A stretch of 64,000 nucleotides of DNA. Origin: Hyphococcus sp. Lineage in GTDB: Bacteria; Pseudomonadota; Alphaproteobacteria; Caulobacterales; Parvularculaceae. Location: NCBI GenBank assembly GCA_021776335.1, contig JAJFGB010000009.1, forward strand, positions 310,001-374,000, read 5' to 3'. Below are positions 46,567-56,968 of the stretch, one piece after another. Position numbers and translations under genes: made by a program. Positions within the stretch are counted from its first letter, which is position 1, and each line of letters begins with the position of its first letter. Under the pieces are notes generated by a model, which saw nothing but the letters and a program-made list of their open reading frames with translations, did not search any database and was not told the origin of the DNA.

Positions 46567-46643
46567 GGCGGGGTAGCTCAGTTGGTGAGAGCGCAGGATT
46601 CATAACCCTGAGGTCGGCGGTTCAAATCCACCTCCCGCTACCA
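46567..46643 (+). tRNA. tRNA-Met (CAU, elongator type)
   Basis: A 77-base cloverleaf with encoded CCA. It reads GGCGGGG acceptor arm, GCTC/GAGC D-stem, a CAGGA-TTCATAA-CCCTG anticodon arm with CAT at positions 34-36, a TTCAAAT T-loop and CTCCCGCTA CCA. The GGCGGGGTAGCTCAG opening is that of alphaproteobacterial elongator tRNA-Met rather than initiator. Two A-C mismatches are visible, one at the base of the anticodon loop (31:39) and one in the T-stem (GGCGG/CCACC). A T-run (46647-46651) follows. Confidence 0.88.
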
Positions 46644-46713
46644 TTACTTTTTCAGAGATCTTTTCGTCCTTCGCCGCTGCCTGGAACCGGTGAACAACGT
46701 TCTATGGAGGCGA

Positions 46714-46839
46714 TCAACCATCGCTTCCTTGCGCGCGCCGCAACGCCGACGGCGCTAGCCCCGTCGCGCGCAGAAACTGCCTGCTGAAAGCGCTTTGGTC
46801 GCGATAGCCTGCGTTGAGTGCAATCTCTGCAATCGCGAT
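46714..46839 (-). pseudogene. 3' remnant of an AraC-family regulator gene
   Basis: On the minus strand this encodes about 41 residues, including [18 protein letters not shown] and then SRQFLRATGLAPSALRR, ending in a stop at 46714-46716. That is the second helix-turn-helix of an AraC protein. It matches the end of the intact gene at 54126-54875: positions 46742-46839 align without gaps to 54163-54260, with about 8 differences in 98 bases by eye. The rest of the gene is absent; the break is directly joined to the IS66 remnant. Confidence 0.85.
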
Positions 46840-47068
46840 CAATGGAACAAACAACAATACTGCCAAGCGCGCCGTAGGCAGCATCGCGTTAGGGCGTATA
46901 AATTATATGTTCGTCGGATCAGACCGAGGCGGCGCCGCCGCCGCGACCCATATGCTCATCGAGGCCGTCAAACCCAATTGCGTCGATCCGCAAGCCTGGC
47001 TTACGGACGTCCTGACCCGCATCGCAGATCATTCGATCAATAAAATTGACCAACACCTACTGTGGAAT
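46838..47068 (+). pseudogene. C-terminal remnant of an IS66-family transposase
   Basis: A frame running through here encodes [16 protein letters not shown], then [32 protein letters not shown] and IDQHLLWN. These follow the C-terminal sequence of IS66 TnpC transposases (usually NNxAERAIRPxALGRKNxLFAGSDxGG ... WN). About 75 residues remain; the catalytic core and both inverted repeats are missing. The frame then runs on through unrelated sequence to 47179. No tnpA or tnpB is seen. This is a scar of a former insertion. Confidence 0.85.
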
Positions 47069-47284
47069 ATTGAGTTAAATTCTTCAGATTATGTTCGCGT
47101 CGGGCGCTTACTTTTGACGGGCTTCAAGCTCAGCCCAAAATCCACTCCAGATGAGAACTGCCATAACCACACGCTTTAGCTTGTGAGTGGAACGGTTCGT
47201 CGCAATTCCTTTGATGTGTTGCATAGATGCGGTGAGGTTTCGCCCTCAAGGCAGACATCTCTGCCAAAATCGTCGGGGAACATC

Positions 47285-48133
47285 ATGAAGAACATTGCTG
47301 CTTTGGTTTTCTTGCTTTTACCGCCTTTCATTGGCGCCGAGGCCAGTGAACAAGAATCATATGCACAAAAATCATACGAAATGCCGAGAACACAGGTCGT
47401 GCCTATCCGGGATACAAAGTCGGACAGGCAATATGAGCTCTATATAAAACTGCCAGAGGACTATGAAGAAAACACCGACGTAAAATACCCGGTGATCTAT
47501 ACGGGAGACGCCATCTGGCAAATGGATATGCTGTCCGGTTCCACAGAGTATCTGATGCCAAATGTTATTTTGGTCGGCATCTCCTGGCAAAAAGACCTCG
47601 GTGATGAAAGGGCGCATGCCAGCAGGTTTCGGGATTATTCGCTGGTGAAGAACACAGATGTGACGCGGCCAAGAGGCCAGGCAGACAATCACCTGTCATT
47701 CATTCGTGACGATGTTATCAAATTTGTCGAGAACACCTACCGGGCAGATCCTGATGAACGCGCCTATTTTGGGTATTCCCTGGGGGTACAGTTGGGCGCG
47801 TATATTTTGTTCGCGCAGCCGGACACATTCAAACATTATATTTTTGGCAGTCCAGCTTTCAGTGAACGAAGCGGGCAATACATTGATGAGTTTGAAGCCA
47901 AAATGGCGCCCCGGCAAAAAGACCTCAACGTAAATGTTTTTGTGTCGCTTGGTGAATTGGAAGAAAACGAGATCGGGTTCGTTGAAGACTTTGTGTCAGT
48001 GTTGCAGCGTAGAAGCCAGACAGGTTTAACGCTTACCGGGCTTGAGATAATTGAAGATTCCACCCACCAAACCGCGTTTCCCGAAGCCGCAATACGCGGC
48101 ATAAAATGGCTGTCACAGCTGACAAGTGAATGA
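47285..48133 (+). CDS. Secreted alpha/beta-hydrolase (putative esterase)
   Basis: A 282-residue exported hydrolase with a signal peptide (NIAALVFLLLPPFIGAEA), followed by a putative-esterase domain. The nucleophile elbow is YFGYSLGVQLGA, so Ser is in GYSLG. An acidic residue and a His in EIIEDSTHQTAF could complete the triad. ATG 47285 is chosen at the signal peptide with GGGGAA upstream. Related by fold to the esterase at 11524-12357. It is the first intact gene after the AraC/IS66 scar. Substrate unknown. Confidence 0.82.
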   Translation: MKNIAALVFLLLPPFIGAEASEQESYAQKSYEMPRTQVVPIRDTKSDRQYELYIKLPEDYEENTDVKYPVIYTGDAIWQMDMLSGSTEYLMPNVILVGISWQKDLGDERAHASRFRDYSLVKNTDVTRPRGQADNHLSFIRDDVIKFVENTYRADPDERAYFGYSLGVQLGAYILFAQPDTFKHYIFGSPAFSERSGQYIDEFEAKMAPRQKDLNVNVFVSLGELEENEIGFVEDFVSVLQRRSQTGLTLTGLEIIEDSTHQTAFPEAAIRGIKWLSQLTSE

Positions 48134-48202
48134 TCTTCACACGCACTGAAAACAAATTCACCTACAGAAATCCAAATTAATGAAAAGCTCCAGGAATTTA
48201 AT

Positions 48203-49411
48203 ATGATGATCAGGTCGACGTTCAAAAGTTTAATCGCCGTCGCTTTATTTAGCGGTTTTAGCGGCTTTGCCGCTGCAGGCGCCGCAGAAAATACCGAAGA
48301 AAATGATAGTAGCGCACCGGAAGCGACAGCGGCCGAGGCCGAGTTGTCATTCCGGGATCTTACTCTCCTGGAAAAAGCCTTTATCGACACCGCGCCTGCG
48401 GCCAGAGAGGGCGCCCTTCCAGTGGGTGAATTGGGCGTGGACGGCGGCGAAAAAGCCATGATTGTCAAGCTGGCCGAGGAGATCGGTGACGGCAAGCACG
48501 GCAAATACGACAGCCTGCTTATCACCCAGGGCGGCAAGCTCCTGTTCGAAAGTTACACCCAGCGCGGTCGCATCAATCTGGCCCACGGCCAGGCGTCAGC
48601 CACCAAGGCCTACACCAGCCTGGCGCTTGGCCGCGCTATCCAGCTCGGGTATCTGACCATGGCCGATCTGGATAAGCCGATCATTAGTTTTCTGAAAGAC
48701 CTGGACCGGACAAAACTTGTGGAGGGCGCAGAAAAAATCACACTCCATAAGGCATTGACCATGCACGGGGGGCTTAGCGTCAGTGACGAAAAATGGGAAG
48801 AGCTTCAGGAAAACCCCGCTGCATTAAAGGGCCAGGGTCTGGTTCAGACCCTTCTTGAGCATAGCGGGCCTATTACCGCAGAGTCTCAGACCTATTTATA
48901 TGGAAACCACAATCCAATGTTGGTGATGACGGTCATCGACGCCGTGGCGCCAGGCACCGCCGAGGATTTCATCAAAAATGAAATCCTCGATAAATTGGGC
49001 ATCACAAATTACAGCTGGGAGACACATGTTAGCGGCCTGCCACAAGCGGGTTGGATGGTGAGCATGACATCTCGCGATATGCTCAAATGGGGCAGCGTTG
49101 TCCTCAATAAAGGCAAATGGGATGGCGAACAGTTTATTCCGGCAGACTATCTCGCCAAGGCCACCAGCGGGCTTGTTAAACCAACTGAAGATTGGATGCC
49201 TGACACCTACCGTTACGGCTATTTTTGGTATCAAACGCCCATAGCGGTCGGTGATAAAAACTATAATGCCACGTTTGCATGGGGCGGCGGCGGACAACGT
49301 GTGATCGTGGTTGCCGACCTTGACCTAACAATTGTGATCACCGGCCATGACCGCGAAGACACAATAATGACTCAGGTTTCAAAAACCATCCTACCTGCGT
49401 TTGTTGAATAG
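48203..49411 (+). CDS. Secreted beta-lactamase-fold serine hydrolase
   Basis: A 402-residue exported protein with a signal peptide ending at AAAGAA, then an acidic Ala/Glu linker. The catalytic domain (about 90-400) resembles class C beta-lactamase / D-Ala-D-Ala peptidases. SxxK is SATK (about residue 133), the YxN element is YGN, and the late loop FAWGGGGQ stands for the KTG region. Such proteins are often esterases or 6-aminohexanoate-dimer-like hydrolases rather than true beta-lactamases. ATG 48203 and 48206 are both possible. Its stop lies 11 bases before the next ATG. Confidence 0.83.
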   Translation: MMIRSTFKSLIAVALFSGFSGFAAAGAAENTEENDSSAPEATAAEAELSFRDLTLLEKAFIDTAPAAREGALPVGELGVDGGEKAMIVKLAEEIGDGKHGKYDSLLITQGGKLLFESYTQRGRINLAHGQASATKAYTSLALGRAIQLGYLTMADLDKPIISFLKDLDRTKLVEGAEKITLHKALTMHGGLSVSDEKWEELQENPAALKGQGLVQTLLEHSGPITAESQTYLYGNHNPMLVMTVIDAVAPGTAEDFIKNEILDKLGITNYSWETHVSGLPQAGWMVSMTSRDMLKWGSVVLNKGKWDGEQFIPADYLAKATSGLVKPTEDWMPDTYRYGYFWYQTPIAVGDKNYNATFAWGGGGQRVIVVADLDLTIVITGHDREDTIMTQVSKTILPAFVE

Positions 49412-49421
49412 GGATGGAATC

Positions 49422-50312
49422 ATGAAACCTGTTTTGCCTTCAATGGCGCTGTTGTTTTCTGTACTGATGATGAGCAGCGGCAGCTATGGCCAGGATAATA
49501 TTCCCATTCCAGATGGTCCCTATCTTGGGCAAATGCCACCCGGCTCAACCGCTGAAGTTTTTGCGCCCGGCATTGTTAATACAGAAGGAAATCGTGAAAT
49601 TGAGGGCATGTTTGCGCCGGGTATGAATGAGTTTTATTTCATCCGGAGACCACTTGGCGAGGAATCCAAGTACAATGTATTGACTGTCATTGAGTACAAA
49701 AATAATCAATGGCAAGAGGCTCATGTCAAACAAGGCGTGAGTGAAGGATCATTCTCTCCCGATGGGATGACCCTCTACTTTGCAAAAGAATATATGGAGC
49801 GCACCAGCGCCGGTTGGTCTGCGCTAAAAAGCCTTGGGGCGCCTTTCAAAGACATCGCCATCATGCGGCTTTCGGCGGCGTCCAGCGGAACCTATTATTT
49901 TGATACCTTTACCCCAGAACTGGATACGCCTCTGCGCTATTCACGTTTGATAGACGGCCAATATGAACAACCAAAGTCACTGGGCCCGCAGTTTGCCATC
50001 GGCACATACAATGCCCACCCCTTCATTGCGCCCGATGAGTCCTACATTATCTGGGATAGCAGAAGAGAAGGCGGATATGGCACATCTGACCTCTATATCA
50101 GCTATCGAGCGGCCGATGGCGCATGGGGCCCTGCCATCAATATGGGCGACAAGATAAATACCGCCAGTGCCGAAAACTATCCGAGTGTGTCACCCGATGG
50201 AAAATTTCTCTTCTTTGATCGACGGGGAAAATCCGCAAACGATGATGACCCTCCTGTCGATATCTACTGGGTGGATGCGCAGATTATTGAAACGCTCAGG
50301 CCCAGGCCATAA
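49422..50312 (+). CDS. Secreted PD40 beta-propeller protein (paralogue 1)
   Basis: A 296-residue exported protein. A signal peptide (MALLFSVLMMSSGSYGQ) is followed by the shared opening GPYLGQMPPGSTAEVFAPG and a run of PD40/WD40-like blades with repeated FSPDGMTLYF, FIAPDESYIIWDSRREGG and VSPDGKFLFFDR. It ends DIYWVDAQIIETLRP, as in the two copies at 52309 and 53194. PD40 repeats form beta-propellers that bind proteins or sugars; no catalytic site is evident. ATG 49422 has AGGGATGG upstream. A near-identical 5' end is repeated at 51297. Confidence 0.85.
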   Translation: MKPVLPSMALLFSVLMMSSGSYGQDNIPIPDGPYLGQMPPGSTAEVFAPGIVNTEGNREIEGMFAPGMNEFYFIRRPLGEESKYNVLTVIEYKNNQWQEAHVKQGVSEGSFSPDGMTLYFAKEYMERTSAGWSALKSLGAPFKDIAIMRLSAASSGTYYFDTFTPELDTPLRYSRLIDGQYEQPKSLGPQFAIGTYNAHPFIAPDESYIIWDSRREGGYGTSDLYISYRAADGAWGPAINMGDKINTASAENYPSVSPDGKFLFFDRRGKSANDDDPPVDIYWVDAQIIETLRPRP

Positions 50313-50429
50313 CAGGCCGCGCCTGTAAGCGAGGGCGTTAAAGGGGCAACGTCAATGCGATCACGATTTCGAATACACATCGCGTACGTCAAGTGCGCTT
50401 GAACAGAAGAATAACCGAGGGAGTTGGTA

Positions 50430-51209
50430 ATGAAAAAAATAATGGGATTAACGTTGAGCCTGATGTCGTTGGCTGCATGCCAACACAGCGACCTGGGCAG
50501 CCGCCCGGACAACTACCAGGGCATCTCAGATCAAACCCCAACCGGCTCAAGCGCAATATCAGCGGACGGCCTTGTGGCTGCTTATGATTTCGAAACTTAT
50601 ACGAATGATGGCATGCTAAAAGACTTTGGCCCGTTCCAAAATCACGGCAAGGTCCAACAAACGCAAGAAACGGATGGCTTATTTGGGAAGGCGCGCATTT
50701 TTAAAACGCTGGAGGATGTTGTCGATGTTCCCGAAAATGACAGCGTGAATCTGCCCGGCCCGCTCACCATTGCTGCGTGGGTAAAGCTCAACACCCCCAA
50801 TCTGCATCAACATATTTATTCATGTGATGACATCTACGTATTGTGGACAACAACGGGCAATCAATACCGGCTTGCCGATACTCAGGCCAATGGCCTGACC
50901 ACGGAAAAAGACACAACACCGCTTGGCGCGTGGCACAGTGTGGTCGCCGTTCTTGCCGCCACCGAAGGGGATGCGTTAAACAACGACAACATTAAAATCT
51001 ATATCGATGGACAGGAGATCGAGGGTGGCACAGGACCCGTTTGGGGACCGGCTACGCTTCGTGAAGCGGACGGTTGCCTGATTGGCGCGGCAGTATCCGG
51101 TTCGCCAGCCCATCAAAATCTGATTTTTGATGGTGTGCTTGATGAACTACACGTTTTCTCCCGTGCGCTTTCCGAAACAGAAATACAAATTTACAGCACC
51201 AGAAATTAA
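50430..51209 (+). CDS. LamG-domain lipoprotein
   Basis: A 259-residue lipoprotein. The signal ends in the lipobox SLAAC, with Cys near residue 17, followed by a Ser/Thr/Pro-rich spacer. A concanavalin-A-like LamG domain then runs from AAYDFETYTNDGMLKDFG to the end, with VNLPGPLTIAAWVKL and VLDELHVFSRALSETEI typical of LamG jellyroll modules. It probably binds carbohydrates or another ligand at the outer membrane. ATG 50430 has GAGGGAG upstream. No enzyme domain is present. Confidence 0.83.
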   Translation: MKKIMGLTLSLMSLAACQHSDLGSRPDNYQGISDQTPTGSSAISADGLVAAYDFETYTNDGMLKDFGPFQNHGKVQQTQETDGLFGKARIFKTLEDVVDVPENDSVNLPGPLTIAAWVKLNTPNLHQHIYSCDDIYVLWTTTGNQYRLADTQANGLTTEKDTTPLGAWHSVVAVLAATEGDALNNDNIKIYIDGQEIEGGTGPVWGPATLREADGCLIGAAVSGSPAHQNLIFDGVLDELHVFSRALSETEIQIYSTRN

Positions 51210-51296
51210 TAACGGCCAGGTGACCGCTGGCCGATTGAAATTACGTCTTTATCGCTAAAACATTGGAAGCCTCAAAACAAACACGGATAAGCAATC

Positions 51297-51422
51297 ATGA
51301 AACCTGTTTTGCCTTCAGTGGCGCTGTTGTTTTCTGTACTGATGATGAGCAGCGGTAGCTATGGCCAAGATGATAGTTTCATCAGCTGCAGCAAATTCCG
51401 GTCGCTGCATAACAAGGGCTGA
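51297..51422 (+). pseudogene. Truncated copy of the PD40 gene 5' end
   Basis: The first 78 bases from ATG 51297 repeat the start of the gene at 49422 with four differences by eye. They encode the same signal peptide through SGSYGQD. The frame then departs from homology and ends at TGA 51420-51422, giving 41 residues. No propeller sequence remains. It is either a broken tandem paralogue or an accidental secreted short peptide. Confidence 0.75.
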
Positions 51423-51500
51423 TATCCACTTATAAATCGACACATAAATGTGCAAAAACCAGGCCGCTTCTGCCAAACCTGAAACCACCTAAGGAATCCC

Positions 51501-52127
51501 ATGCAAAACTTGTCAAAACTGCTGCTATTAAGCGCCTCCCTTTTATTCCTGGCCACTAAGGCCAGTGCTTTCGAAACCATCGCGATCAATCCAACCAACA
51601 AAGCAGCACTATTGGACGGCCGTTGTGGCAACGATGAATGGGAAGCAGCAACAAAGATCGAGCTGCCAGCGCAGGCTTCCATTTATCTCATGCAGGATGA
51701 AGACTCCTTCTACATTTGCGCCAAAGGCAAAGCGGAAGACTACACGGTCTTAGATCTTTACATAGAACATGCAGAAACTGGCCAACTCCACCATTTTCAT
51801 CTCTCCGCTCAAATGGGAGAAAGTGTACTCACAGAGGAAGGATGGGAACAGGCATCCGGCAAGTGGGAGCTCAAAGACTATGCTGGATTCTGGGTGCCCT
51901 TTTCTGGGCTTGAGGATCCCGAAAATAGAAAGGATCCTAAATTCGAAAGAGGAACGCACAGGCAAGTCCAGGTGTTACGCAAAAAATTTTCGGGTAACAC
52001 TTGGAATATGATGTTTGGCGTAAGCGCCATTAATCACGAAGGTAACTCTGGAGCAGAATTCTTTTACCCCGAAAAAGCAGTAGCTGACGATAAGGCGACC
52101 TGGGGGAAGTTTTCATTTTCTGAATGA
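51501..52127 (+). CDS. Secreted CBM9-like domain protein
   Basis: A 208-residue exported protein with a signal peptide (LLLLSASLLFLATKASA). It is followed by a beta-sandwich resembling carbohydrate-binding family 9 / DOMON-like domains: LLDGRCGNDEWEAATKIELP near the start and SFYICAKGKAEDYTVLDLYI in the middle. No catalytic domain is attached. It probably binds a ligand in the periplasm or at the surface. It lies between the truncated PD40 copy and two intact PD40 genes. Confidence 0.7.
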   Translation: MQNLSKLLLLSASLLFLATKASAFETIAINPTNKAALLDGRCGNDEWEAATKIELPAQASIYLMQDEDSFYICAKGKAEDYTVLDLYIEHAETGQLHHFHLSAQMGESVLTEEGWEQASGKWELKDYAGFWVPFSGLEDPENRKDPKFERGTHRQVQVLRKKFSGNTWNMMFGVSAINHEGNSGAEFFYPEKAVADDKATWGKFSFSE

Positions 52128-52217
52128 AAGCTCTAAATACAATTAGTGAGGCTTAGGGGGCATGCCGCCTGACAAAAAAATCAACAGGAATGCAAACAGC
52201 AACGGCTATCGCCGTAG

Positions 52218-52235
52218 GGCGGGATTAATCCCGCC
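52218..52235. repeat. 18-base perfect palindrome (REP-like)
   Basis: GGCGGGATTAATCCCGCC equals its own reverse complement. It sits in the 181-base gap before the second PD40 gene, preceded by GTAG, in the style of repetitive extragenic palindromes. I see only this copy in the window. The rest of the gap holds no gene. Confidence 0.5.
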
Positions 52236-52308
52236 TCTTAAGCTATGGTGGCGGGGTAAACCCAGTCCCACGCGCGTAGCGCCTACTGAAATCAAATTAG
52301 GAAAAATT

Positions 52309-53181
52309 ATGAAGCGTGTTTGTGCCTCAATGCTCTCACTACTTTCTGTGCTGATGATGAGTAGCGGCAGCCATGCCCGGGAGTTCCCCGTGCTCGAAGG
52401 CCCCTATCTCGGGCAAACGCCACCGGGTTTAACCCCTGAAGTTTTTGCGCCCGGTATCATTTCGACAGAGGGGTGGGAATATGGCGTCGCTTTCACACCT
52501 GACATGAAAGAGATCTATTTTATTAGAGAGGTAGAGGTTGAGGGAAATTTAAAACAAGAATTTGTTGTTTTTCAAAATAAAAATAATCGATGGCGCGAGA
52601 CTGTCCTGGGACCCAGAGTGGGCCAACCCACTTTCTCGCCCGACGGTAAGATCATGCATTTGGGCCGCCGCTATAAGGAGCGTACCAGGGATGGCTGGTC
52701 AGAGAGAAAAAATCTTGGAGGACCATTCGAAGACATCCGCATTATGCGCATGACGTCGTCATCCAAAAAAACCTATTATTTTGACGAGGTAGGTTCAGAT
52801 GACGGAGATAGTGTTCTTCGATATTCACGGCTGGTAGACGGCAAGCGTGAAGCGCCCAATCCGCTCAGCAAAGAGATAAACACAGGAAAATACAATGCCC
52901 ATCCCTTCATTGCACCAGATGGGTCCTATCTCATCTGGGATGGTCAAAGAGATAGCGTCGTTCGTAATGCTGATCTTTTTATCAGTTTCCGACAGCAAGA
53001 TGGCTCATGGGGTGAGGCTATCAAAATGGGCGCTGCGATAAATACAGAGGCGTCGGAGTTTGCCGCGAGCGTGACGCCAGATGGTAAATATCTTTTCTTC
53101 AACAGGAATATGGGCCCAGACAATACAGATACATTCTGGGTGGATGCGCAGATCATTGAAACGCTCAGACCCAAACCATAA
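52309..53181 (+). CDS. Secreted PD40 beta-propeller protein (paralogue 2)
   Basis: A 290-residue exported protein with a signal peptide (SMLSLLSVLMMSSGSHA), the GPYLGQTPPGLTPEVFAPG opening, and PD40 blades such as FSPDGKIMHLG, FIAPDGSYLIWDGQR and VTPDGKYLFFNR. It ends FWVDAQIIETLRP. It is a clear paralogue of the genes at 49422 and 53194. ATG 52309 with AGGAAA upstream is preferred to the longer in-frame reading from 52162, whose extra 49 residues come from the palindrome region. Confidence 0.85.
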   Translation: MKRVCASMLSLLSVLMMSSGSHAREFPVLEGPYLGQTPPGLTPEVFAPGIISTEGWEYGVAFTPDMKEIYFIREVEVEGNLKQEFVVFQNKNNRWRETVLGPRVGQPTFSPDGKIMHLGRRYKERTRDGWSERKNLGGPFEDIRIMRMTSSSKKTYYFDEVGSDDGDSVLRYSRLVDGKREAPNPLSKEINTGKYNAHPFIAPDGSYLIWDGQRDSVVRNADLFISFRQQDGSWGEAIKMGAAINTEASEFAASVTPDGKYLFFNRNMGPDNTDTFWVDAQIIETLRPKP

Positions 53182-53193
53182 AGAGACAAAAAG

Positions 53194-54063
53194 ATGAAAT
53201 CTGCTTTTGCTTTTATCGGACTGGTTTTTTCAGCGCTGGCAACCACAAGCGGTAGCCACGCCCGGGATTTTCCAGAGCTTGAAGGACCCTATATGGGGCA
53301 AACGCCCCCGGGCATGACAGCAGAGGCGTTTGCGCCGGGTATTTTCTCCACTGAAGCTTGGGAACTCGAAGGCGTTTTTGCACCCGGCATGGATGAATTT
53401 TACTTCACCACAAGGGGCGGCAATTACACTCGGCCCACCGTTTTCGGCTTCCGCCAGGAAAATAATATCTGGAAAAAATATATCGAGTTCACGCGGGACG
53501 GTGAAGTGACATTTTCGCCTGATGGCAAGCGCATGCATATGGCGGAAGGTTACAAGGAGCGTGTTGCAAGCGGCTGGTCAGAGCGAAAAAGCCTGGGGCC
53601 CATGTTTGAGCGTGAGGACTGGGGCATTATGCGTCTGACGGCGTCAGCGAGAGACACTTATGTGTTTGATGATTATAAAAGTGGCGATGTGATCCGCATT
53701 TCAACGCTCGTGGACGGCAAGCGCCAGGCGCCCAAAGAGATGGGCCCGGTGGTCAACACAGGCAAATGGACAGCCCACCCCTTCATCGCGCCAGATGAAA
53801 GTTATTTGATTTGGGATAGTGAGCGGGAAGGCGGCTTCGGAGAATCCGACCTTTATATCAGCTTCCGCCAAAAAGACGGATCCTGGGGCCCTGCTATCAA
53901 TATGGGCGACAAAGTGAACTCCGACAAATGGGATGCCTATGCCAGCGTCACCCCCGACGGCAAATACATCTTGTTCAATAGGGGCGTAGACCCAGAAAAT
54001 GACAATGTGGATATCTACTGGGTAAGTGCAAAAATCATTGATGCGTTGAGACCGAAAGAGTGA
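53194..54063 (+). CDS. Secreted PD40 beta-propeller protein (paralogue 3)
   Basis: A 289-residue exported protein. After its signal peptide (FAFIGLVFSALATTSGSHA) comes LEGPYMGQTPPGMTAEAFAP and the same blade pattern, with FSPDGKRMHMAEGYKERV, FIAPDESYLIWDSEREGG and VTPDGKYILFNRG. It ends DIYWVSAKIIDALRP. It follows paralogue 2 by 12 bases, so the two share a transcript. The three copies differ at many positions, which points to old duplications or separate selection. Confidence 0.85.
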   Translation: MKSAFAFIGLVFSALATTSGSHARDFPELEGPYMGQTPPGMTAEAFAPGIFSTEAWELEGVFAPGMDEFYFTTRGGNYTRPTVFGFRQENNIWKKYIEFTRDGEVTFSPDGKRMHMAEGYKERVASGWSERKSLGPMFEREDWGIMRLTASARDTYVFDDYKSGDVIRISTLVDGKRQAPKEMGPVVNTGKWTAHPFIAPDESYLIWDSEREGGFGESDLYISFRQKDGSWGPAINMGDKVNSDKWDAYASVTPDGKYILFNRGVDPENDNVDIYWVSAKIIDALRPKE

Positions 54064-54125
54064 GCATTACCTGCTCACTAAAGGAGGCGCTATATGCGAG
54101 GGGGCGGCGCAGAAAAATAAATGAC

Positions 54126-54875
54126 TTACAAAAGGGGGGCGTCACGGCCGCGTGCGCGTCGGAACGCCGACGGCGTTAGCCCCGTCGCGCGAAGAAATTG
54201 CCGGCTGAAAGCACTCTGGTCGCGATAGCCTGCATTGAGTGCAACCTCTGCAATCGCGATGGGTGATTGCAGCAACTGCCGGCGCGCCAGATCAAGTCGT
54301 TGTTTCAGAACCCATTGTCCTGTGGACAGGCCGAATATGCGGCGGAAGCGGCGATCAAGCTGATAGGGCGACAACCCGGCAATTGCAGAAAGCGTTTTTA
54401 TATTCGGGGCGTCGCCGAGATGCTTGTTGATATGATCTGTGACGGCTTTTAACCGCGCGTGATCGTCATGGCTTGTATCCGGCGCGCGTAAATCCTGCGA
54501 GATGCCGACGATGCCGGTTACGCTGCCTTGGTCGTCGCGCAGGGCGCGCTTGTTGGTCAGGCACCAACCAATCGAGTGGTTCGGGTACATGTGGAGTTCG
54601 AGCTGGTTGAGGATCGGCTCGCCGGTTTTCAAAACCTCCCGGTCTTGCTTTTCATAGCTGCGCCCAAGGGATGCGCCAAGCACCTGGGAAGGGGTCTTGC
54701 CGATGAGCGCTGCGTTGTCCCGTATACTGCACCGCGTCGCCAGGGTGGTGTTGGCGACAACATAACGGCCCTCAGTGTCTTTGACAAAAAACACAATATC
54801 AGGAAGGCTGTCAAACAGCTCTTCAATTGGCCAGTTTTCCTTATAGATAGGTAAGTTTCTCCTATAGTCGCGCAT
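54126..54875 (-). CDS. PAS-AraC transcription regulator of the hydroxyproline operon
   Basis: A 249-residue regulator. An N-terminal PAS domain has LFDSLPDIVFFVKDTEGRY and VTGIVGISQD. A C-terminal AraC domain has HLGDAPNIKTLSAIAGLSPYQ in the first helix-turn-helix and [20 protein letters not shown] in the second. It is divergent from the hydroxyproline genes, with a short shared control region, and probably senses hydroxyproline or an intermediate. ATG 54875 is chosen; an in-frame TTG at 54908 would add 11 residues. Its 3' end is repeated, as a remnant, next to tRNA-Met at 46714. Confidence 0.85.
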   Translation of the reverse strand: MRDYRRNLPIYKENWPIEELFDSLPDIVFFVKDTEGRYVVANTTLATRCSIRDNAALIGKTPSQVLGASLGRSYEKQDREVLKTGEPILNQLELHMYPNHSIGWCLTNKRALRDDQGSVTGIVGISQDLRAPDTSHDDHARLKAVTDHINKHLGDAPNIKTLSAIAGLSPYQLDRRFRRIFGLSTGQWVLKQRLDLARRQLLQSPIAIAEVALNAGYRDQSAFSRQFLRATGLTPSAFRRARGRDAPLL

Positions 54876-54970
54876 CCATAGTTTTTCATCTATTGTGCAA
54901 AAAATCAAGTTTCAAATTGATTTTGCGCCAAGACGGTGCGGGATAGCGGGATTATAGGGAGCTGCTTGTT

Positions 54971-55134
54971 GATTTTGTCTGCGGGGGGAGATGCTGATGA
55001 TTGCGTGCTCCAATGCATATTCCGGTTGTATGCCCGCATTGATGGTGACCTTTGATGATTTTATCTGCGAGGAGATGCTGATGACCGCGCCCGCCAATGT
55101 TTTTTCCGGCTGTATGCCTGCATTGATGACGCCC
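54971..55134 (+). repeat. In-frame tandem duplication of a translation start region
   Basis: Unit 1 (about 54971-55050) and unit 2 (about 55057-55134) both carry GATTTT-TCTGCG, a Shine-Dalgarno (GGGGGGAG or GAGGAG), ATGCTGATG and then about 17 similar codons ending CCGCATTGATG or CTGCATTGATG. The start codons are 84 bases (28 codons) apart and in frame. The duplication repeats SGCMPALM in the longer reading. Confidence 0.85.
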
Positions 55135-56028
55135 TGCGATGGAGATGGTCGTCCGGATTTTGATGCGCTTTCCCGTAAAGGCAAAGAGCTGGTTGAGGCC
55201 GGCATGAGTGCGGTTGTTTATTGCGGTTCCATGGGAGACTGGCCGCTATTGAGTGATGAACAACGCATGGAAGGCATCGAAGCGCTTTGCAAAGAAGGCG
55301 TTCCCGTCATTGTCGGCACCGGCGCGCAAAACACAGCGCGCGCCGCGGCGCTCGCTCGCCATGGGGCGTCTGTTGGCGCCGCAGGATTGATGGTGATCCC
55401 GAGAGTATTGTCGCGCGGCGTTTCTCCTCATGCGCAGCATCATCATTTCGCAGCAATACTCAGTGCCGCGCCGGACCTGCCTGCGGTTATCTATAACAGC
55501 CCTTATTATGGTTTTGAGACCAAGGCGGACCTCTTTTTCAAGATCCGCGCAGACCATCCAAATCTCGTTGGCTTTAAGGAATTTGGCGGCTCACAATCCC
55601 TGAGCTACGCAGCGGAACATATCACATCCGCCGATCCTGATGTCATTTTGATGGTCGGCGTCGACACGCAAGTGTTTCATGGTTTTGTTAATTGCGCCGC
55701 TGGCGGCGCGATCACCGGCGTTGGCAACGCGCTGCCCAGGGAAGTGCTCCACCTTGTCACTTTATGCGAGCGCGCCGCTGCAGGCGATCAAAAGGCGCGC
55801 CAGTTCGCGCGCGAACTTGATGATGCGCTCCATGTGCTCTCCACGTTCGATGAAGGTCCGGATCTTGTGCTTTATTACAAGCATTTGATGGTGCTGGAGG
55901 GGCATTCGGAATACGAACACCAGATTTATGCGGCGGATGCGCTGACGCCCCCACAGAAAGCTTTCATTGAGCAGAGCTGGCGGCAATTTCGCGAATGGTG
56001 GTCGAACTGGCCGGGCAAGGAAAGCTGA
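55081..56028 (+). CDS. Pyrroline-4-hydroxy-2-carboxylate deaminase (DapA family)
   Basis: A 315-residue DHDPS-family aldolase-type enzyme. It converts delta1-pyrroline-4-hydroxy-2-carboxylate to 2-oxoglutarate semialdehyde with loss of ammonia. The family start is NVFSGCMPALMTPCDGDG, then VVYCGSMGDWPLL. The Schiff-base Lys is in LVGFKEFGG (about residue 166) and the Tyr in VIYNSPYYGF. ATG 55081 fits the usual length and has GAGGAG upstream. The duplicated start region lets translation also begin at 54997 (343 residues), in frame. It is the first gene of the operon, divergent from the PAS-AraC regulator. Confidence 0.88.
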   Translation: MTAPANVFSGCMPALMTPCDGDGRPDFDALSRKGKELVEAGMSAVVYCGSMGDWPLLSDEQRMEGIEALCKEGVPVIVGTGAQNTARAAALARHGASVGAAGLMVIPRVLSRGVSPHAQHHHFAAILSAAPDLPAVIYNSPYYGFETKADLFFKIRADHPNLVGFKEFGGSQSLSYAAEHITSADPDVILMVGVDTQVFHGFVNCAAGGAITGVGNALPREVLHLVTLCERAAAGDQKARQFARELDDALHVLSTFDEGPDLVLYYKHLMVLEGHSEYEHQIYAADALTPPQKAFIEQSWRQFREWWSNWPGKES

Positions 56029-56038
56029 ACAACAACCG

Positions 56039-56968
56039 ATGAAAGTGATCGATTCGCATACGGGCGGCGAGCCGACGCGCGTCATTCTCGAAGGCGGGCC
56101 GGATCTTGGAGCCGGACCGCTTGATGAGCGCTGCGCGCTGTTCGCTCGGGATTTCGACCACTTTCGCACGATGTGTGTGCGAGAGCCGCGTTGTTCGGAT
56201 GCGACGGTCGGCGCCTTGTTGTGCGAACCTCATGATTCTACATGCTCCGTAGGCGTTATTTTCTTCAACACAGCTGGGTATCTCGGCATGTGCGGGCACG
56301 GAACCATCGGGTTGGCGGCGACGCTTGCTTATCTCGGGCGCCTTGAGCCCGGTGAGCATCGCTTCGAAACCCCGGTCGGTGTTGTTAAAGTCAATCTCCT
56401 CAATGCCAATGAAGTGCGAATCGAAAATGTCGAGAGCTACAGATATCGAAAAAGTGTCAGTGTCGATGTGCCCGACATTGGTCCAGTGGTTGGCGACATC
56501 GCCTGGGGCGGTAATTGGTTTTTTCTGATCGACGGCGCCCCCGCAGCGCTCACGCTGGATAATGTGCAGGAACTGACATACGCATCGACGAAAATCCGGC
56601 GTGCGCTTAACAAGGCTGGCGTGACGGGAGAGGGCGGCGTCGAAATCGATCACATCGAATTTTTTGAAGAGCCCGCCAGTAAAGGCGCCGACAGCCGCAA
56701 CTTCGTTCTTTGCCCGGGCGGCGCCTATGACCGTTCGCCATGCGGCACCGGCACCTGCGCCAAGCTGGCATGCCTTGCAGCTGACGGAAAGTTGTTGCCG
56801 GGAGAGGATTGGATTCAGGAAAGCATTGTCGGCAGCCGTTTTACAGGCTCCTATCGCTATGACGAGGCCGGGCGCATTATCCCCTCCATCACCGGTTCTG
56901 CCTATATTTGTGGCGAGGCCTGGTTGACGTTCCAGGAAGGCGATCCATTTCGTCTCGGCATTGCATGA
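56039..56968 (+). CDS. 4-hydroxyproline 2-epimerase
   Basis: A 309-residue member of the proline racemase superfamily. It turns trans-4-hydroxy-L-proline into cis-4-hydroxy-D-proline. Both catalytic cysteines are present: GMCGHGTIG (Cys about 85) and RSPCGTGTCAKL (Cys about 235). This excludes the trans-3-hydroxyproline dehydratase subgroup, which has Thr in place of the second Cys or Ser/Thr at the first. The N-terminal IDSHTGGEPTR is typical. ATG 56039 is chosen ten bases after the previous stop; its stop overlaps the next ATG. Confidence 0.92.
   Translation: MKVIDSHTGGEPTRVILEGGPDLGAGPLDERCALFARDFDHFRTMCVREPRCSDATVGALLCEPHDSTCSVGVIFFNTAGYLGMCGHGTIGLAATLAYLGRLEPGEHRFETPVGVVKVNLLNANEVRIENVESYRYRKSVSVDVPDIGPVVGDIAWGGNWFFLIDGAPAALTLDNVQELTYASTKIRRALNKAGVTGEGGVEIDHIEFFEEPASKGADSRNFVLCPGGAYDRSPCGTGTCAKLACLAADGKLLPGEDWIQESIVGSRFTGSYRYDEAGRIIPSITGSAYICGEAWLTFQEGDPFRLGIA

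Follow-up and report, generated by a model that had tools for sequence, protein, structure and literature searches.

The 64,000-nucleotide stretch of Hyphococcus sp. DNA analysed here (the window; G000:C10:310001-374000, from a genome of 4.18 Mb in 11 contigs) contains a single tRNA gene, tRNA-Met, behind which lies a displaced 3' end of a PAS-AraC regulator gene (araC). The intact araC gene stands about 7.3 kb further on, at the edge of a set of hydroxyproline genes, and the two are separated by a scrap of an IS66 transposase and a block of genes for exported proteins. Using 27 further genomes of the genus for comparison, we interpret this arrangement as the probable trace of an insertion into the 3' end of araC. 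The features of the locus are as follows:

46567..46643, plus strand: tRNA-Met (CAT), the only tRNA of the window; its upstream side is conserved in the genus and its 3' side is not
46660..46733, minus strand: native DNA flanking the araC end, including the opening codons of an ancient transposase relic (IS3 family) that G017 has too; part of a 77% match to G017
46733..46839, minus strand: displaced araC 3' end (the remnant), 97 of 107 bases identical to 54154-54260, at its native place beside the tRNA in the reading given below
46840..47111, plus strand: C-terminus of an IS66 transposase (PF13817 and a match to a complete IS66), together with what is probably the element's right end (CGCTTAC at 47105-47111)
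47132..47284, plus strand: leader of the block, with similar sequence in G006 and G024 and, for part of it, in G007
47285..48133, plus strand: exported esterase (PF00756)
48203..49411, plus strand: exported serine hydrolase of the beta-lactamase family (PF00144)
49422..50312, plus strand: PD40a, an exported PD40-repeat protein (from domain search, as 49401-50309)
50430..51209, plus strand: LamG-domain protein (PF13385, as 50424-51206) with a lipobox-like start, judged by eye
51293..51382, plus strand: 5' end of a lost fourth PD40 gene, 92% identical to 49418-49507
51501..52127, plus strand: exported protein of 208 residues, with no family in Pfam or NCBIfam
52309..53181, plus strand: PD40b (from domain search, as 52162-53178)
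53194..54063, plus strand: PD40c, with amino acid identity of 94% to G007 C43 and 92% to G017 C9
54064..54153, plus strand: right end of the block; similarity to G007 stops at 54093
54154..54260, minus strand: the other copy of the araC 3' end, belonging to the intact gene, from the repeat match
54126..54908, minus strand: intact PAS-AraC regulator (PAS and HTH_18/AraC domains), at the edge of the hydroxyproline genes
54991..56968, plus strand: DHDPS-family enzyme and 4-hydroxyproline epimerase, syntenic with G017

The two araC ends form a direct repeat of 107 nucleotides (46733-46839 and 54154-54260), identical at 97 sites (91%; E value 3.7e-36 in a search of the own genome), and both copies correspond to the end of a minus-strand PAS-AraC gene. 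Eight of the 10 differing sites fall within the 98 bases 46742-46839, and the gapless match of about eight differences between 46742-46839 and 54163-54260 that an earlier note on this DNA had read by eye is thus confirmed as part of a slightly longer repeat. The stop of the intact gene, at 54126, falls outside the repeat in the right-end stretch of the block; the last approximately eight residues of the regulator therefore lie beyond the repeat, and block DNA may encode them. The regulator retains its DNA-binding domain, and the gene is complete on the side of the block. Searches of the own genome at E <= 1e-10 recovered three AraC matches, namely the intact gene, the remnant and an unrelated AraC protein (34%), and there is therefore no other full copy of araC in this genome; the search for such a copy that the earlier note had proposed thus came back empty.

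The history of this repeat was examined against the sister genome G017, the nearest among those compared. Its genes before tRNA-Met match the window at 80-83%, and its araC and hydroxyproline genes do so at 78-81%. The remnant together with its flank (46660-46833) matches the end and flank of the single araC gene of G017 (L033 11860-11686) at 77%, and this indicates that the remnant stands at the native place of the gene end; the flank of the intact copy has no match to the G017 araC flank. Neither the block nor the repeat is present at the syntenic place in G017, suggesting that the 3' end of araC took up approximately 7.3 kb once the two genomes had split. Taken together, these comparisons indicate that the remnant probably marks the original site of the araC end and that the 7.3 kb were probably inserted later, within the 3' end of the gene, with G017 as the one sister genome on which this reading rests. 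The same match bears on two ideas of the earlier note. Its view that a second AraC regulator had been destroyed by an IS66 event is not upheld, as the remnant and its flank match the single araC end of the sister, and a second araC gene lost in this genome is likewise disfavoured by this match and by the lack of a further full copy. Its proposed comparison with an empty site in sister genomes gave a divided answer: G017 indeed lacks the block, but its tRNA-Met is not directly followed by araC, a further 4.1 kb lying between the tRNA and the araC flank where the window has almost nothing. This additional G017 segment holds three proteins without a Pfam family above cut-off and a relic of an IS3-family transposase behind araC, the IS3 label being taken from annotated relatives. 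As the last bases shared by the two genomes encode the same start of this relic (window NVVHRFQAAAKDEK; G017 RKVIRRFQSAAKDEKADMFDYIERFYNP), the relic probably predates the split of G000 and G017. In G017 the relic lies directly behind araC, at L033 11807-11968. A separate repeat is seen at the 5' end of the DHDPS gene (54987-55057 and 55071-55141; 79%, 84 bp apart), a region that seems to be single-copy in G017, where the matches overlap.

Orthologs of araC (at least 64%) were found in six of the 27 other genomes of the genus, G019 keeping only the last 73 residues at a contig end, and the closest named loci in the araC search were metagenome-assembled genomes called Marinicaulis sp. In G018, G004 and G019 the gene faces a peptidase gene; the G018 product is of the PepQ/aminopeptidase kind, below curated cut-offs, and those of G004 and G019 look alike by eye. 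The G018 peptidase has no match in G000 or G017, in a search made without a positive control. For five of the six orthologs the surrounding stretches that were read contain no tRNA, two of these stretches being under 5 kb; among these genomes, tRNA-Met beside araC is therefore seen only in the window and G017.

The seven intact plus-strand genes between the repeat copies encode an esterase, a serine hydrolase, three PD40 proteins, a LamG protein and the 208-residue protein. All have signal-like starts as judged by eye, in agreement with the earlier observation that the 7.3 kb hold only exported proteins. The name of the beta-lactamase family is no evidence of drug resistance on the part of the serine hydrolase. 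PADLOC assigned no family to any of 10 proteins. The start of a fourth PD40 gene, overlooked in the earlier note, also precedes the 208-residue protein gene in G007, where PD40a and the LamG gene are absent. The leader is conserved before the first gene of the block even though that gene differs between genomes (window 47132-47284, L099 7351-7475 and L100 6145-6278), and the window copy of the leader has no Rfam match.

Judging from composition and divergence, the block is foreign to this genome. It is the stretch of lowest G+C among all 7-kb stretches of the window, scanned in steps of 500 bases (0.498 versus 0.581 and 0.555 on its two sides), and its silent divergence from related genes elsewhere is low relative to that of resident genes. 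The DNA of PD40c is 93% identical to its G007 counterpart over 957 bp, as against 70-79% for the resident genes compared with G007. By the Nei-Gojobori method, synonymous divergence (dS) between the window and G007 is 0.15 for PD40c, 0.20 for the 208-residue protein and 0.45 for the serine hydrolase, versus 1.86, saturation and 2.35 (an M3 peptidase) for three resident genes. With G017 the values are 0.24 for PD40c and 0.46 for PD40a against 0.78-1.03 for seven resident genes, and with G006 they are 0.44 for PD40c, 0.59 for the esterase and 0.80 for the hydrolase against 1.44 and saturation for two resident genes. Comparisons of paralogs (PD40a and PD40b with G007 and G006; PD40b with G017) were left out of these values, as was that of araC (0.50), which takes in a non-homologous tail.

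Related gene sets occur at other sites in four genomes of the genus. In G007 the hydrolase, the PD40 start scrap, the 208-residue protein and PD40c lie between genes for an M3-like peptidase and riboflavin genes (named by eye), a place where G010 and G026 carry 610 and 1019 bp of other DNA. G006 has the esterase, the hydrolase, a HEAT protein and PD40c behind tRNA-Leu; G017 has PD40a and PD40c on another contig, near its end; and in G024 the set consists of a HEAT protein, two PD40 genes and a PD40 scrap. These occurrences imply that the cargo moves, with its set of genes changing by place. More widely, relatives of PD40c at an E value of 1e-40 are found in 21 of the 398 genomes of the order, this one among them. 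A search of plasmids with the block returned a PD40 gene at 70% and pieces of IS66; the former belongs to plasmid pSU1 of the gammaproteobacterium Agarilytica rhodophyticola (L224 5908-6777, about 70% DNA identity to that of the window). In G012 a PD40 pair and a serine hydrolase gene (L124 4428-7413) lie close to a tyrosine integrase gene (G012:C27:3573-4070). A literature search for Parvularculaceae together with genomic island found no paper. We also considered location next to a tRNA as a rule for the block and rejected it: only three of the 22 loci with PD40c relatives (the window, G006 and G003) have a tRNA within 1 kb and 19 do not, and the 12 loci outside the genus showed no tRNA in the 10-17 kb read. 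A tendency of the block to stand beside tRNA genes is an idea formed after the first cases had been seen, and it is unproven.

In two of these genomes the cargo lies between shared inverted ends. The G006 genes (L099 7111-11497) lie between ends that share the inverted sequence ATTCCGTGTCATTT, of 14 bp (15 bp in G024), and are flanked by a 9-bp direct repeat, CCCTTGTTG, at L099 7102 and 11498. With its repeats the G006 unit spans L099 7102-11506, behind tRNA-Leu, and the G024 unit spans L100 3259-6446. The G024 ends are 96% and 99% identical to those of G006 over 79 and 98 bp. No matching direct repeat was seen by eye around the G024 unit, the flanks of the two units do not match each other, and inspection by eye of both units revealed no transposase-like open reading frame. 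Their ends may be reminiscent of the IS256 family. The window has none of these ends (0 matches with three mismatches allowed), which implies that the inverted-end unit represents another route taken by related cargo and not that of the present copy. An autonomous inverted-end element was entertained and rejected, as the pair of ends occurs on one contig only in G006 and G024 (28 genomes of the genus, up to two mismatches). Ten other genomes of the genus have scattered single matches to the end pattern, and on plasmids it found only matches with E values of 3 and 9. It is unlikely, in our estimate, that genes for these exported proteins (PD40, serine hydrolase, esterase, HEAT) constitute a mobile unit of Parvularculaceae in its own right, which in G006 and G024 would move as an inverted-end, transposase-free element and in the window by gene-end recombination, duplicating about 100 bp, with a leaning to places behind tRNA-Met, tRNA-Leu and tRNA-Thr.

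At its left edge the block is preceded by the IS66 scrap. The earlier note had recognized that the first araC copy is joined to an IS66 C-terminal remnant, and domain and protein matches bear this out: 46814-47179 holds the IS66 C-terminal element (PF13817, E value 9.4e-10) and aligns with residues 405-496 of an annotated, complete IS66 transposase (E value 5e-23). That complete IS66 carries GTAAGCG and CGCTTAC outside its genes, a motif that we take to be the IS66 terminus. The join to the remnant lies at 46839/46840, inside both araC and IS66. At its other site in G007 the same edge of the block has a 41-nucleotide piece of the same IS66 part (37 of 41 identical), albeit weak at the protein level (E value 0.031); the scrap therefore probably arrived with the block as a passenger. 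Nothing shows that IS66 made the break in araC. Of the two ends and target duplication that characterize an IS66 insertion, only the C-terminus and one probable end remain. The proposed search for other IS66 copies brought up none, the remnant itself being the single PF03050 match in the own genome at E <= 1; a 31-nucleotide likeness to the IS66 part at C5:281391 has no IS66 protein match around it.

The region behind tRNA-Met is variable throughout the genus. Genes upstream of this tRNA match the window in all 23 other genomes compared. On its 3' side (24 genomes, downstream stretches of 2-12 kb; G001, G005, G006 and G019 were left out, their tRNA being poorly matched or at a contig end), long shared stretches that begin less than 200 bp from the tRNA in at least one member are restricted to G007/G010/G020/G026 and G022/G025. 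Sharing further out is seen in some genomes, for instance between G008 (from 1.7 kb) and G021 (from 3.3 kb), and the araC side is common to G000 and G017. Length differences beside the tRNA occur within all three sets (G020 +1.7 kb and G025 +1.4 kb versus their sisters; G017 +4.1 kb). One predicted protein behind the tRNA was classified in each of 20 other genomes, giving 17 matches to Pfam families other than integrases, one integrase (G027) and two without a match. The 17 are mostly of ordinary metabolism or transport, and the place therefore resembles a gene-order break more than a classical island. The integrase, at L105 4747-5979 and 1.2 kb behind the tRNA, is the one tyrosine integrase within a few kb of tRNA-Met among the matches listed.

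For the locus as a whole we favour, with a probability of roughly 0.5, a homology-guided acquisition of a travelling foreign block into the araC 3' end, behind a variable tRNA site. The geometry of the repeat can be read directly from the DNA, and we infer the order of events as follows. The ancestor would have had tRNA-Met, some DNA, the IS3 relic, araC and the hydroxyproline genes, as in G017. After the split the foreign DNA of about 7.3 kb, comprising the IS66 scrap and the exported-protein block, would have entered the araC 3' end. The incoming piece would have brought an araC end of its own, making the gene complete on the block side and leaving the native last 107 bp beside the tRNA. A transposase leaves a short target repeat. 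The araC repeat, at 107 bp, is not of this kind, and two homology-guided routes would give it; such integration should leave foreign DNA bordered by a duplicated part of a resident gene, and this is present. A circle with the block and an araC end may have integrated by a single crossover at araC, or a replacement may have combined homology at araC with illegitimate joining on the IS66 side. Both routes call for a donor, presumably a close relative that already carried the block beside araC. In the portions of an E. coli conjugation study on which we draw, a PCR product of a gene-end duplication was obtained in 56 of 60 clones, with 109-950 bp in the 14 sequenced, and a single crossing-over with a circle was concluded (PMC3240628).

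Several points weigh against this acquisition. No donor with the block beside araC appears among five readable orthologs of the genus and two more distant loci, a small sample; in G015 the contig ends behind araC, leaving its downstream side unreadable. No clear microhomology is seen by eye at 46839/46840. A single crossover predicts that the intact copy would be more G017-like toward the N-terminal side and the remnant toward the tRNA, and the observed order misfits this: starting at the N-terminal side, the differing sites are R,R,I,R,I,I,I,I,I,R, where R marks the remnant and I the intact copy as the one like G017. Ten differences are too few to decide for or against a single crossover. Seven of them are silent (P 0.008 under free evolution of both copies and 0.07 under that of the remnant alone), and the remnant may have drifted or the copies may have diverged as working genes. 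Finally, as described in the parts of the experimental literature used here, the illegitimate variant is rare and usually accompanied by deletion. As for the suggestion of the earlier note that the block arrived by recombination between two AraC copies, an insertion involving two AraC ends holds and is placed after the split, and the donor was not found.

The silent differences are one of the attractions of a tandem duplication of araC in this lineage, in which the block and IS66 would have come between the copies and a deletion from IS66 into the outer copy would have left only its end. They look as if both copies had once been under selection, the break at the remnant interrupts araC and IS66 alike, and the block itself has paralogous copies and a truncated gene start. 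Such a history needs at least three steps, however, and this genome lacks any further complete araC, so that we consider it possible but doubtful. An IS66-mediated rearrangement that cut a second araC gene, as proposed in the earlier note, would account for the IS66 C-terminus and probable right end between remnant and block. Yet that probable end faces the block while the break on the araC side is internal to IS66, no other IS66 transposase exists in the own genome, and the scrap at the same block edge in G007, at another site, suggests that it predates the present insertion; this reading is decidedly unlikely.

The related sets between inverted ends in G006 and G024, with a 9-bp direct repeat in G006, raise the question of whether the block transposed as such a unit and later lost both ends. 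The window shows no trace of these ends, and its duplication of 107 bp is far from the 9 bp of G006, making this quite improbable. An integrative element of tRNA-Met whose integrase and attachment site are gone would agree with the contrast between the conserved upstream genes and the differing 3' sides, and with the G027 integrase behind the same tRNA. The repeat, however, is of araC and not of the tRNA. The longest exact match to the tRNA 3' end within 15 kb in the window is 11 nucleotides, and behind tRNA-Met in ten genomes its match was never better than 13/18 or 18/25. Among the matches listed, the five tyrosine integrases (PF00589) of the own genome all lie elsewhere, the only one on this contig being 160 kb off, serine recombinases being outside this search. 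The earlier note had likewise found neither an integrase nor a repeated tRNA end, and its thought of the tRNA as an integration point remains weak, though the 3' side varies in the genus; we regard such an element as very improbable.

The locus is a real gene-transfer scar, and the kind of event is already known; its interest lies in the cargo and in the several points of comparison. It offers a legible natural example of DNA inserted into a gene end without loss of the complete gene, for which the native place, an insertion-free sister and other addresses of related cargo are available, and it reveals a set of exported hydrolase and PD40 genes that moves between species of one genus, once inside an inverted-end unit. 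Among known systems, tRNA-associated genomic islands share the variable DNA on the tRNA 3' side, but the window has no nearby tyrosine integrase or repeated tRNA end. Mobile insertion cassettes may fit the G006/G024 form, with inverted ends, passenger genes and no recognised transposase, whereas the window copy lacks those ends. Homology-facilitated illegitimate recombination, as proposed for Vibrio cholerae immunity-gene arrays in the sections of that report relied on here (PMC5361080), also has one homologous side and leaves a displaced gene part; in the window there is no effector-immunity module, and the displaced part is the araC end. The gene-end duplication by single crossover, in the portions of its report cited above (PMC3240628), likewise places foreign DNA between two gene-end copies of about 0.1-1 kb, one of them truncated, but there the partners were a laboratory plasmid and lacZ, whereas here the event is natural and the copies are 9% diverged.

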